Shown piece by piece: positions 1 to 45,619 of a stretch of 52,758 bases of DNA. This DNA is from an uncultured Bacteroidia bacterium (GTDB lineage Bacteria; Bacteroidota; Bacteroidia; Bacteroidales; UBA932): NCBI GenBank assembly GCA_902784435.1, contig CACZUR010000016.1:1-52758 (forward strand), given 5' to 3'. The translations under genes and the position numbers were made by a program. The stretch's first letter is position 1, and each line of letters opens with the position of its first letter. Under the pieces are notes generated by a model that saw only the letters and a program-made list of their open reading frames with translations, ran no database searches and had not been told where the DNA came from.

Positions 1-63
1 GACTTGCATGTGTTAAGCCTGCCGCTAGCGTTCATCCTGAGCCAGGATCAAACTCTTCATTGT
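1..63 (-). rRNA. rrs: 16S rRNA gene, 5' end (partial)
   Basis: The reverse complement of the first 60 bases contains AGAGTTTGATCCTGGCTCAG, the conserved 5' primer region of bacterial 16S rRNA, followed by the usual continuation to ACATGCAAGTC. Counting back from the conserved site (E. coli position 8 at base 56) puts the mature 5' end near base 63. The rest of the gene runs off the left edge of the window. Confidence 0.98.
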
Positions 64-3232: not shown

Positions 3233-5008
3233 CTAGTCCTGTGAAAAGTCTTTGAGTTCTTCCCGGTAGGCGCTGAAAATCTTGGATTTGGACAGGAACC
3301 CCACATAGGTGCGGTCCTCGGCCACCACCGGCAGGTTCCACGCGCCGGTTTTCTCGAACTTCCGCATCACGGAATCCATGGCCTCACCGGGATGGATGTA
3401 TTCCGGTGCCGACCGCATATAATTGTAAACGTGGCGTTTTGTATACAGCTCCGTGCAGAACATGTCTTTCCGGATGTCCGAGAGTGACACATAGCCCTGG
3501 AACCGTCCACGGCCGTCCAGCACCGGGAAAATGTCCCGCCGGGAACGCGAGACGGCATTCACCAGTTCCCCCAGCGTGGCGTCTATATCCACCGCCACGA
3601 AGTCCTTTTCCAGCAGGCCGTCGGTTTTCAGGAGCGTGAGCACCGCCTGGTCCGAGTCGTGCGTGAGCAGTTCTCCGCTGGCCGCGATGCGCTTGGTGTA
3701 AATGGAATATTTCTCGAAGATGCGGGTAAAGCCGTAGGAAATGGCCGATGTAAAGATGAGCGGCACCAGAAGCTCGTACCCGCCGGAAATCTCGGCAATG
3801 AGGAAGATGGCGGTGAGGGGGGCCTGCATGACGCCGGCCATGAGCCCGGCCATGCCCACCAGCACAAAATTGGACACCGGGACGATGGCCGGAGAGAGGA
3901 GGTTGAGCGTGGTGGCTACCACAAAACCGGCGAGGGCGCCCATGAACAGTGTAGGGCCGAAGGTACCGCCCACGCCCCCGCCCGCATTGGTGAAGGTCAT
4001 GGAGAACACCTTCAGGAGCAGCACCAGGAGGAAGAAAAGGGGCACCGCCCAAGGCAGATGCTGGAAAAAGCGAAACGGCGTGGCGCCGAAATCGGCCTGC
4101 ATGCCATTCAGCAGCGGGGAAAGGAAGCCGTAGCCTTCCCCGTGCAGCGGCGGGAACAGGAAGATGAGGATGCCCAGCATCAGGGCCGACACAACCCACC
4201 TCAGATAGGGATTCTGCAGTTTGCCCAGCCGGTCTTCCATCTCCAGCGTAGTGCGGATGAAATAGATGGAAAAAAGCCCGCAGAGGATGCCCAGAACCAG
4301 GTAGAAGGGCAGATTCCCCAGGTGGAAAGGCACCACATAGGCGGCGAAGGGGCTCTCCCGGCTCAGGATCAGGTAACTGACCAGGGTGGCCGATATGGAG
4401 CTGAGCAGCAGCGGCAGGATGCCGGACATGGACAGGTTGAACAGCAGGATTTCCAGCGTGAAGAGCACGCCGGCGAGCGGAGCGTTGAAAATGCCTGCCA
4501 CGGCCCCGGCGGCTCCGCAGCCCAGCAGGAGGGTCATGCCCCGGTAGGACATGCCGCTGTACTTGCCCAGGTTGGAGCCGATGGCCGCGCCCGTATACAC
4601 GATGGGAGCCTCCGCACCCACCGAACCGCCGAAGCCGATGGTGAGGGCGCTGGTGAGGAGCGAACTCCAGCAGTTGTGCCCCTTGATGCGGGATTCGTTC
4701 TTGGAAACGGCCTGCAGCACCTTGGTAACGCCGTGGCCGATATTGTCTTTTACCAGGTAACGGACGATGACCAGGCTCAGGAGCATGCCCACGCCGGGGA
4801 GCACCAACTCCCAGAGCGGCTGGCCGCCGGTGAGCGAGGCCAGGCCTCCCTGGATGGCATGGATGGCGAGTTTGAGCGTGACGGCGGCCAGCCCGCACAG
4901 GATACCGGTGACGACGGACAGCCCCAGGAGGGCGTGACGCTCCGGTACCTTACGCAAAAGGGCCCGCAAAGGGGCCCAAATAAGCTTTATGCCGCCGCGG
5001 TGCGCCAT
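3233..5008 (-). CDS. ClC family chloride channel/transporter with two CBS domains
   Basis: This 591-residue inner-membrane protein belongs to the voltage-gated chloride channel family. About ten to twelve hydrophobic helices fill residues 1-430. GAEAP carries the putative gating Glu133, and GTFGP (348-352) matches the GxFxP filter motif. The family's first filter motif, GSGIP, is not obvious. Two CBS domains, which bind adenosyl ligands, fill the C-terminal part. The ATG at 5008 was chosen because the preceding gene ends there: TAATG makes a one-base stop/start overlap, and residues upstream of it are low-complexity Arg/Gly. Whether it is a channel or a proton antiporter cannot be decided from sequence. 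Confidence 0.92.
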   Translation of the reverse strand: MAHRGGIKLIWAPLRALLRKVPERHALLGLSVVTGILCGLAAVTLKLAIHAIQGGLASLTGGQPLWELVLPGVGMLLSLVIVRYLVKDNIGHGVTKVLQAVSKNESRIKGHNCWSSLLTSALTIGFGGSVGAEAPIVYTGAAIGSNLGKYSGMSYRGMTLLLGCGAAGAVAGIFNAPLAGVLFTLEILLFNLSMSGILPLLLSSISATLVSYLILSRESPFAAYVVPFHLGNLPFYLVLGILCGLFSIYFIRTTLEMEDRLGKLQNPYLRWVVSALMLGILIFLFPPLHGEGYGFLSPLLNGMQADFGATPFRFFQHLPWAVPLFFLLVLLLKVFSMTFTNAGGGVGGTFGPTLFMGALAGFVVATTLNLLSPAIVPVSNFVLVGMAGLMAGVMQAPLTAIFLIAEISGGYELLVPLIFTSAISYGFTRIFEKYSIYTKRIAASGELLTHDSDQAVLTLLKTDGLLEKDFVAVDIDATLGELVNAVSRSRRDIFPVLDGRGRFQGYVSLSDIRKDMFCTELYTKRHVYNYMRSAPEYIHPGEAMDSVMRKFEKTGAWNLPVVAEDRTYVGFLSKSKIFSAYREELKDFSQD

Positions 5009-41538: not shown

Positions 41539-41611
41539 ATAAAAAAACAGATGCTCACGAATCCTTTTTGCCAGCTGGCACTTAAATCACCTTCTACCAA
41601 AAACTTACAGT

Positions 41612-41651
41612 ACTGGACGGGTACTTATCGGCCACCCGTCCGATGACGTAA
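41612..41651 (-). repeat. Hairpin repeat, copy A, after the LytTR gene
   Basis: On the minus strand, TTACGTCATCGGACGGGT (41651-41634), 11 variable bases and ACCCGTCC (41622-41615) begin 1 base after the LytTR stop. GGACGGGT pairs with ACCCGTCC to form an 8-bp stem. The same 37-base pattern (33 of 37 bases identical) occurs in reverse orientation after the ExbB-like gene (copy B). The copy is flanked by the 8-base direct repeat AACTTACA (41602-41609 and 41650-41657). Confidence 0.85.
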
Positions 41652-41652
41652 C

Positions 41653-42366
41653 TTACAATCTGTCAAGAGTTTTAGTGCCAGAGGCCACCTTATCTCTATA
41701 CTTTCTGGACACCGGAAGGCGGACGCCATTCACCAAAACGCATTCCGGCGATTCCGGAACCAGCAAACTGAGGTTCACCAGATAGGAACGGTGAATTCTG
41801 AGGAAGCCTTCTCCCAACAGATTCTCCCACTGGCCGATACCGGTTTTATTGCGGTACGCCGCACCGTCCGCTGTTACAATGCGTACCTCGGTATCGTTGG
41901 ACTCCACGTAAGCAATCTCGGCAAGAGGCAGCGAAACACTTTTCCGGTCAGAGAAGAAAGTGACCGTACGGGGTCTGGCTTTGATATGGTTTCCTATCCA
42001 TCGGCCCCAGAAATAGTCTCCCAGAGAGAGGGTGGTAAGAATCATTCCCAGAAAGGCCGGATTAATGAGCATAGGAGAGATGCTCTTTCTGCTTTGATGA
42101 AACCCTTCCGGGGTTAGCGATGTCCACACCCCGAAATGAAGGATAATCACCAGCAGGATGACAGCTGTCAAAACGGCAAGAGACAGATACACCTTGTCCC
42201 TGGGCCGCTGCGCTTTGGGCATCCAGAACTCCAGGGCTAAAGCACAGGGACAGAAAACGAGGCCGATAAGAACAGCCTGGGCCAGGGTATAGTCCAAACT
42301 GGTAAGGATGGCAGCCTGTAATGCCACGGCAGCCAGCCAGTAAGCTATGCGGAATAAGACTCTCAT
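41653..42366 (-). CDS. Membrane-bound LytTR-family transcription regulator
   Basis: A 237-residue protein with four predicted membrane helices (about 4-25, 29-48, 58-82, 98-118) fused to a LytTR DNA-binding domain (about 135-235; PLAEIAYVESNDTEVRIV, FLRIHRSYLVNL, LPVSRKYRD). LytTR domains bind direct repeats and control secreted or membrane systems. Here the sensor is the membrane part itself and no response-regulator receiver domain is present. The ATG at 42366 follows an excellent promoter by a few bases; an upstream in-frame ATG (42408) would precede that promoter. It is divergent from the ExbB-like gene with 143 bases between. Confidence 0.9.
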   Translation of the reverse strand: MRVLFRIAYWLAAVALQAAILTSLDYTLAQAVLIGLVFCPCALALEFWMPKAQRPRDKVYLSLAVLTAVILLVIILHFGVWTSLTPEGFHQSRKSISPMLINPAFLGMILTTLSLGDYFWGRWIGNHIKARPRTVTFFSDRKSVSLPLAEIAYVESNDTEVRIVTADGAAYRNKTGIGQWENLLGEGFLRIHRSYLVNLSLLVPESPECVLVNGVRLPVSRKYRDKVASGTKTLDRL

Positions 42367-42373
42367 CAGTACG

Positions 42374-42404
42374 CAAAAATAGGGAAAAAGTCTCTCTTGA
42401 ACAA
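42374..42404 (-). promoter_or_regulatory. Promoter of the LytTR gene
   Basis: TTG (42404-42402), 20 bases, then TATTTTTG (42381-42374) on the minus strand. The predicted leader is almost zero, since the ATG is 7 bases downstream. Confidence 0.75.
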
Positions 42405-42454
42405 GCATATAGGCCTTGCAGAGGGTTTTGACAGGGCTATGGTGGGTTTTAACT

Positions 42455-42486
42455 TTGGATTATACTCCCGGATTGGAGTACCTTTG
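42455..42486 (+). promoter_or_regulatory. Promoter of the ExbB-like gene with internal dyad operator
   Basis: TTG (42455-42457), 21 bases, then TACCTTTG (42479-42486). Within the spacer, TACTCC (42463-42468) and GGAGTA (42475-42480) form a 6+6 dyad with a six-base gap that reaches into the first two bases of the -7 box. A protein bound there would block polymerase, so a repressor site is plausible. Confidence 0.7.
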
Positions 42487-42509
42487 CAGCAAACCAAAAC
42501 ACATCCGTT

Positions 42510-42899
42510 ATGAAAGAGGAAGTCTATTACGTTGTGGACTCTTTGGGCGTATCACAGCCTGAGACCATCGAAACGGCTCGTGAACCCATCACGAACCTGT
42601 TTGTTGCAGGCGGACTGGCCGGCATGATTGCCATTACCGTTCTGCTCATCTGCCTGTTCCTGGCAGCCTGGAAAGCGCCCAAGTGGGTGAAAGAAATCGG
42701 CCTGGGCGCTCTTGTCATTGGAATTTTCTGGTCTATCCGCGGCCTGACCCAGATGCTGGGTGTGCTCCAACTGTTTGGAGATATAAGCCCTGCCGTTATC
42801 TGCGGTGGCCTGAAAGTGACACTGATTTCCACCTCCTACGGGCTGATTGTCTACTTCTTATCGCTCGTCATCCGGATTATCCAGAAACCCCGGATTTGA
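42510..42899 (+). CDS. Small ExbB/MotA/TolQ-like membrane protein
   Basis: A 129-residue protein with three predicted membrane helices (about 29-52, 61-78, 96-121). The last one, GGLKVTLISTSYGLIVYFLS, resembles the conserved helix of ExbB, TolQ and MotA, where Thr residues line the proton path. The cytoplasmic domain of a full ExbB is missing and no ExbD-like partner is adjacent. It may be a stripped-down channel or a regulator of the divergent membrane-bound LytTR protein. The ATG at 42510 follows a strong promoter. Assignment to the ExbB group rests on this helix only. Confidence 0.7.
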   Translation: MKEEVYYVVDSLGVSQPETIETAREPITNLFVAGGLAGMIAITVLLICLFLAAWKAPKWVKEIGLGALVIGIFWSIRGLTQMLGVLQLFGDISPAVICGGLKVTLISTSYGLIVYFLSLVIRIIQKPRI

Positions 42900-42929
42900 G
42901 CGCTGGCAGACAAGTCATTTATTTTCACT

Positions 42930-42982
42930 GCTTTACGTCATCGGACGGGTAACTGACAAGTACCCGTCCGATGACGTAAAGC
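42930..42982 (+). repeat. Hairpin repeat, copy B, perfect 22-bp palindrome
   Basis: The two 22-base arms (42930-42951 and 42961-42982) are exact reverse complements, with a nine-base loop ACTGACAAG. The arm core is TTACGTCATCGGACGGGT. It lies 30 bases after the ExbB-like stop and has no T-tract. Bases 42933-42969 match copy A in inverted orientation. The following bases, 42983-43132, contain no gene or repeat that I can recognise. Confidence 0.95.
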
Positions 42983-43132
42983 GCAATTAATCAGTAGGTT
43001 AGCCGCCAGTTCCAAATTCGCAGGAACTTGGCTATCTGCCTTTCCGAAGCGGCCGCTATCGCTTCCATTGCGACGCCAGGGGAACAGAACTCACTGCAGA
43101 ATAAAAATTTTTCAAGATTTTGTAAAAATTTA

Positions 43133-45461: not shown

Positions 45462-45534
<73 letters not shown>

Positions 45535-45546
45535 TGGTAACTCTTG

Positions 45547-45619
45547 TGACCCGTTCGGGGCTCGAACCCGAGACCCCAACATTAAAAGTGTTGTGCTCTA
45601 CCAACTGAGCTAACGAGTC
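45547..45619 (-). tRNA. tRNA-Lys (anticodon TTT)
   Basis: The acceptor arm GACTCGT/ACGGGTC (one T-G pair), the D arm TTAGCTCAGTTGG, the anticodon loop CTTTTAA (anticodon complement 45584-45586) and the T arm GGGTTCGAGCCCC give a 73-base tRNA without encoded CCA. It is upstream of the CTT gene by 12 bases and co-transcribed with it. Together they read both lysine codons. Confidence 0.95.

Follow-up and report, generated by a model that had tools for sequence, protein, structure and literature searches.

LytTR regulatory systems (LRS) are described, in the sections of PMC6193735 devoted to them, as LytTR regulators under the restraint of a membrane protein, with direct repeats at the regulators' own promoters as their targets, the repeats being 9–11 bp long, 11–13 bp apart and upstream of the promoter. 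The same source records LRS-like operons with transmembrane regulators in Bacteroides and gives Bacteroides promoter box types in its Table 3. RAYT (TnpA_REP) transposases and the TIRYT genes of "TIRtrons", as treated in the relevant parts of PMC6006769 and PMC3733652, have HUH and tyrosine residues and lie between palindromic or terminal inverted repeats; these repeats recur elsewhere in the genome, and some of the terminal ones are partly self-complementary. The ExbB/TolQ/MotA family (PF01618) is the third known group of concern here.

The locus studied lies in a window of 52,758 nt (the whole stretch of DNA analysed; contig CACZUR010000016.1 of an uncultured Bacteroidia bacterium, order Bacteroidales) and resembles all three. 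It contains two divergent genes, a LytTR regulator and a small ExbB-like gene, each followed by a hairpin. We consider it probable, at roughly 0.8, that the hairpins are RAYT-type repeats and that the gene pair is a separate, conserved divergent regulatory unit, two independent things that happen to overlap. The features are as follows.

41575..41681, no strand: palindromic unit A, 107 bp, best read as a solo RAYT-type repeat (RNA fold z -3.5)
41653..42408, minus strand: membrane protein with C-terminal LytTR DNA-binding domain, 251 aa (PF04397, E 1.5e-13)
42422..42453, plus strand: LytTR-type direct repeats AGGGTTTTGAC-N10-TGGGTTTTAAC (42422-42432 and 42443-42453)
42454..42486, plus strand: Bacteroides-type promoter-like pair TTTG (42454) ... 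TACCTTTG (42479), toward the ExbB-like gene
42510..42899, plus strand: short MotA/ExbB-family-like membrane protein, 129 aa (MotA_ExbB, 22.6 bits)
42903..43009, no strand: palindromic unit B, 107 bp, corresponding to the unit 3' of the RAYT-like gene of locus L037 (RNA fold z -9.9)
42930..42982, no strand: inner hairpin of unit B, 22-bp perfect stem with 9-nt loop
43010..43056, minus strand: 3'-end remnant of a RAYT-like transposase gene, of which about 14 codons align (L037 alignment)

The divergent LytTR/ExbB-like pair

Both gene assignments of the initial annotation, a LytTR regulator and an ExbB-like partner, hold. The ExbB-like protein falls just short of the MotA_ExbB (PF01618) cut-off (22.6 against 22.9 bits), and 16 of 24 relatives match the MotA/ExbB family at E<=0.01. 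It aligns with the full-length ExbB of its own genome except in the stretch between the first two helices. It shares the core formed by the last two helices with that ExbB and with the ExbB of another family of the order, but differs from ExbB/TolQ/MotA in lacking the long stretch from the first to the second helix, in having no adjoining ExbD-type gene (none was found among the five window genes scanned) and in being paired with a regulator. An AF2 model of the protein showed three helices (mean pLDDT 62.5, pTM 0.43) and was too weak for a fold search; a PDB search with the family profile gave a single match, with E 0.31, which was taken as chance.

A divergent ExbB-like gene was found at 54 of 60 LytTR loci (L007-L066, window included; the loci are related, not independent), so that separation of the two genes in most relatives, a possibility raised by the initial annotation, is contradicted. 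Of the loci without a counted pair, three (L034, L064 and L066) are truncated at contig ends, two (L035 and L036) match only in part or distantly, and L053 has no ExbB-like gene within 10.6 kb. At L053, a Y1/HUH transposase-like gene occupies the position of the missing gene. Of the window's neighbour genes, none reappeared in the flanks (about 1.5 to 5 kb) of any pair locus other than L037. Recurrent neighbours at the 30 loci L037-L066 were thioredoxin-like (6), M56/BlaR1-type (6) and BlaI-type (3) genes. In L040, a thioredoxin-like gene (3828-4961) lies between the LytTR and ExbB-like genes, on the strand of the latter, and BlaI-type repressor and M56 peptidase/TonB_C genes are seen near the pair, e.g. 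at L042 64-1811 and L055 2341-4481. Among the publications listed by a literature search, none concerned a LytTR-ExbB (or LytTR-TolQ) pair, and the pair is apparently a conserved type of membrane sensor that had not been described before.

Two 11-bp repeats with period 21 (10 bp apart), of the type xGGR(T/A)TTYnAC, were detected in 52 of 53 intergenic regions (L029 included, the 1.2-kb region of L040 excluded), compared with 0 to 25 regions at the other periods from 12 to 33 (25 at period 20 and 12 at period 22). Since the half-site consensus was written after the sequences had been viewed, shuffles overstate its strength; the distance to the TAnnTTTG box, which follows 23–25 bp further on in 49 of the 53 regions (not found in 4), was no part of the consensus.

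As the initial annotation suggested, the locus resembles an LRS: a LytTR regulator adjoins a membrane protein, direct repeats are located at a promoter-like sequence, and the LRS-like regulators of Bacteroides likewise have transmembrane segments (PMC6193735). It differs from the systems treated in that source in that the genes are divergent rather than in an operon, the partner is ExbB-like instead of NfeD/DUF2154, and the repeats are 10 bp apart, one base under the published range, and abut the TTTG, whereas those of the LRS described there are 11 bp apart and 11 bp upstream (PMC6193735). By analogy, we read the pair as a sensory system of the LRS-like kind in which an ExbB core takes the place of the membrane partner: the membrane LytTR protein would bind the direct repeats beside the ExbB-like promoter and set expression of the ExbB-like gene, and the product may in turn influence the regulator's membrane module, in the way that LRS membrane partners do.

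Short ExbB-like genes outside the genus

When 295 genomes from the order were searched with a profile, the matches listed were mostly full-length ExbB, and at least 20 open frames shorter than 170 aa were present among those listed outside the window. Nineteen were taken (G315, 59 aa with a stop, was left out); with L165, L169 and L170, situated at contig ends, set aside, 16 were testable. Among these listed matches, 6 of the 16 are divergent to a membrane LytTR gene (L151-L155 and L159) and 8 to a membrane LytS-type kinase gene, recognized by Pfam His_kinase in L156, L157, L158 and L160 and by tblastn in L163, L164, L166 and L167 (in two frames in L164); the other 2 (L162 and L168) have neither partner. 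All 6 kinase loci of enough length carry a further LytTR gene downstream on the kinase strand. The membrane module of the LytTR form shares homology with that of the kinase form (hhalign 99.6%, E 7e-25; BLAST to 2.8e-20), and the module of the window's genus matches these two forms only weakly (hhalign 33%, E 5e-4, and 19%, E 1e-3). Eight of 9 short ExbB-like proteins of other families score above the Pfam cut-off. By eye, a site like GGATTCGACCTTG precedes the ExbB-like gene in L151-L154 and L159, with a less similar one in L155; a repeat search found no clear second repeat half in these LytTR forms (L151-L155, L159).

Since the ExbB core accompanies the membrane module whatever its output domain, contact between the two in the membrane is suggested. 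The same observation bears on a simpler scheme, in which the ExbB-like protein is a regulated effector of LytTR, either an ion channel or an energy transducer, that exerts no feedback. Although the protein belongs to the ExbB family and the direct repeats and promoter face its gene, as such a scheme would have it, the lack of an ExbD-type gene among the five genes scanned and the pairing of the protein with a membrane module bearing two different output domains make a mere effector the less likely case. A membrane partner that acts back on the sensor module is the reading we prefer.

The palindromic units and the RAYT-like genes

The inverted hairpin repeats reported by the initial annotation are real. 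The 37-nt arms (41615-41651 and 42933-42969) are complementary at 33 of 37 positions (89%), and the arms of hairpin B (42930-42951 and 42961-42982) form a stem of 22 bp, 100% complementary, around the 9-nt loop. Two features go beyond that annotation. A longer alignment places the arms at the centre of palindromic units of 107 bp, A and B, which start with CTGGC and end with GCCAG (A against the reverse complement of B scored 31, compared with a maximum of 16.5 in 200 shuffles), and a transposase gene has left a remnant next to B, as alignment with L037 shows. Unit B starts 4 nt past the ExbB-like stop codon, and the right arm of unit A overlaps the last 8 or so codons of the LytTR gene; the C-terminal end of the LytTR protein is variable among relatives. 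Rfam matches in the window were limited to rRNA and tRNA: the contig opens within a minus-strand 16S rRNA gene (window 1-63), and tRNA genes are located at 45462-45534 and 45547-45619.

Allowing up to 3 mismatches, the 18-mer TTACGTCATCGGACGGGT has 3 matches in the window against 0.03 expected, and assembly-wide these 3, all at the two hairpins, plus one 3-mismatch site on another contig. The hairpin core GGACGGGT-N3..20-ACCCGTCC was found only in A and B in the whole assembly (2.23 Mb in 42 contigs, 82.6% complete, so copies may be missed). Two copies are few for a REP family.

The closest relative is L037, from uncultured Bacteroidales RUG720. It shares the window's gene order (LytTR 88% and ExbB-like 91% identical), but the stretch from the ExbB-like gene to gene 43186 is about 1 kb longer. 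This space contains a 300-aa open frame (L037 3495-4397), the 3' end of which abuts unit B. Its product matches NF047646 (REP_Tyr_transpos) with 28.4 bits (E 1.3e-6) and Y1_Tnp with 14.2 bits (cut-off 23); since the former score is below the cut-off of 80, the protein is labelled RAYT-like. The HUH histidines H57 and H59 and the tyrosine Y116 are invariant in all 49 aligned relatives (short matches and sequences with stops left out), and such relatives were found in 55 of 150 genomes searched, all from the window's genus, with three in the window's own genome. The protein lies outside TnpA_Y1 subclass 2.6 of Bacteroidetes, which PMC6006769, in its account of the subclasses, defines by NH[LIV]H, YIH[QN]NP and a median HUH-Y distance of 82 aa; here DHLH, YLGNNG and about 57 aa from H59 to Y116 are found. 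RAYTs 62% identical to that of L037 are also present near the 43186/SPFH genes in two further species (L205, G005:C155; L206, G037:C1), on the opposite side of these genes compared with L037.

The alignment of the window with L037 runs through unit B and the last 14 or so RAYT codons, ending at 43056; the remainder of the gene is absent from the window. Because a piece of the coding end is retained, we infer from the alignment that the RAYT-like gene was lost in the window rather than gained by L037. In L037 the left half of hairpin A is better kept and much of the right half is lost, and hairpin A was thus probably complete before the two lineages split. A flank comparison found no significant matching unit on the 5' side of the L037 RAYT. 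BLAST with the L037 unit found only B in the window's genome and only the unit itself in that of L037; a pattern scan of the latter lacked specificity, giving 106 and 113 matches where a reversed control gave 199 and 203. AT-rich hairpins are seen about 42–64 nt upstream of the RAYT starts in L037 (about 3390-3450), L067, L068 and L099, and these are unlike the 3' units of the RAYTs concerned.

Within the genus, the 5' and 3' flanks were alike beyond 60 shuffles at 30 of 48 RAYT loci, compared with 3 of 90 control ORFs (of these three, the one in L056 turned out to encode a Y1-type transposase); by this test 18 of the 48, L037 among them, lack matching flanks. The hairpin sequence changes from one RAYT to another. 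The unit of the RAYT on contig 10 of the window's genome occurs at seven further places (E <1; six at E <0.01), six of which are wholly between ORFs (mechanical ORFs of >=110 aa), with the copy on C32 overlapping an ORF end by about a dozen bases. By eye, outer arms near (G/C)CGTTTTT...AAAAACG were seen in the six of these seven units that were viewed. An automatic outer-arm test was mixed and gave, of 200 shuffles, 4 for unit A, 2 for L146 and 0 for L148, then 43 for unit B, 53 for L141 and 36 for L145, and 178 for L142 and 177 for L147, where the script had picked another hairpin.

Since solo units between genes exist in the window's genome, unit A is most simply one too, and is best read as a solo copy 3' of LytTR. 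Occurrence of the repeat at many unrelated gene ends, which the initial annotation named as the mark of a general REP or terminator family, is not literally found for this sequence with its two copies, although similarly built units of another RAYT do lie between unrelated genes of the same genome; its fallback of REP-like elements is supported by the RAYT-like gene at unit B in L037 and the remnant in the window.

Hairpins A and B would thus be two copies of a 107-bp repeat unit belonging to a RAYT-like Y1/HUH transposase, with B as the 3'-end unit of a gene open in L037 and cut to about 14 codons in the window, and A as a solo copy where the LytTR gene ends. If it behaves like the studied RAYT and IS200-type enzymes, the transposase would recognize the hairpins in single-stranded DNA and copy or move them. 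The likeness to RAYTs and TIRtrons covers the HUH and tyrosine residues, the inverted repeats around the genes (matching flanks at 30 of 48 loci; in L037 a clear unit on the 3' side alone), the copies elsewhere and the partial self-complementarity. In contrast to the 20–40 bp tagged REP of the portions of PMC6006769 and PMC3733652 concerned with these systems, the unit here is about 107 bp, with outer arms and an inner hairpin; the protein of about 300 aa is far under the NCBI RAYT cut-off, the hairpin sequence is RAYT-specific, and by eye no GTAG/GTGG guide, as in PMC6006769, was seen at the feet of A or B.

Relation of the hairpins to the gene pair

Whatever their origin, the hairpins might serve as transcript 3' ends of both genes, as terminators or RNA-stabilizing stems. 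Each is located directly at a gene end, and the folds beat shuffles (see the z values above), but B has no directly following T run, A has TTTTT only after 11 further bases (by eye), and conservation of the hairpin sequence does not extend to the ends of other pairs, which together render such a role unlikely. The empty list of the terminator scan is no test, since the scan allows loops of 3-8 only and is blind to A and B.

The initial annotation had proposed a 1.3-kb portable unit bounded by the hairpins. This is not borne out: of the 53 pairs that could be tested, just two, the window (27 against 10) and, by a smaller margin, L037 (12.5 against 10), have inverted matching ends that exceed 60 shuffles. 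The loci are not independent, and 53 of the 54 divergent pairs had enough flank (L029 was left out). Judged from these comparisons, A and B probably do not bound a portable LytTR/ExbB transposon. Empty sites were looked for through gene 43186, which had matches in 60 of 91 genomes; in the 30 loci taken from these, within flanks of about 1.5 kb, no clean empty site was found, and only G019 has the helicase. There, the helicase and gene 43186 are neighbours, with another gene replacing window 41548-43128, which comprises A, B and the LytTR and ExbB-like genes; homology is lost 27 bp outside A and about 119 bp outside B. The small gene filling this gap, at L176 808-1377, is different from those of the pair.

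A larger element, in which A, the pair, B and the RAYT moved jointly with the pair as cargo, was also considered. Y1/HUH genes were found near the pair at 7 of 60 loci (about 5 of them independent; L042, with a 25-aa match that overlaps the LytTR gene, is not counted), compared with 0 of 30 control loci of gene 43186. Given a background of 138 Y1_Tnp matches across 61 genomes (about 2.3 per genome), a rough estimate puts the expected number of such cases below one. This excess and the replacement in G019 leave room for a past composite element, with which the absence of the window's neighbour genes from pair loci other than L037 would also agree. Against it, matching ends are confined to the two pairs, the nearby transposases are of differing kinds, and G019 offers no clean empty site, with homology breaking off beyond both units, so that we hold such an element to be quite unlikely. 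The Y1/HUH-like genes near the pair are those at L053 3657-4859, L055 5668-6837, L056 3360-4244 and L057 3722-4891 and in L009, L027 and L037.

An invertible switch, suggested by the inverted repeats flanking the 1.3 kb, is highly improbable, as the window and L037 assemblies keep the same orientation all the way from A across the gene pair to B, without the inversion that had been envisaged, the repeats belong to RAYT-type units, and inverting divergent genes offers no obvious gain.

RAYT-type repeats framing an independent regulatory pair are therefore our preferred reading, and the analysis separates the footprint of a mobile element from a gene pair merely framed by it. The RAYT part provides a Bacteroidales example of long double-palindrome units whose sequence varies with the transposase. 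For the pair, the presence of a related sensor module beside a minimal ExbB-family protein at 14 of 16 testable places listed outside the genus offers short orphan ExbB-like genes a testable role in signalling in place of transport. We tentatively propose that in Bacteroidales a stand-alone ExbB/MotA core may serve as the dedicated partner of one sensor module, either in a one-component form fused to LytTR or in a two-component form fused to a LytS-type kinase with a downstream LytTR gene, and that the core would enable this module to sense proton-motive force or envelope state, with several paralogs in some genomes; proton-motive-force sensing is the boldest part, drawn from family resemblance alone. 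If true, this would represent an energy-coupled LytTR sensory system in Bacteroidales.
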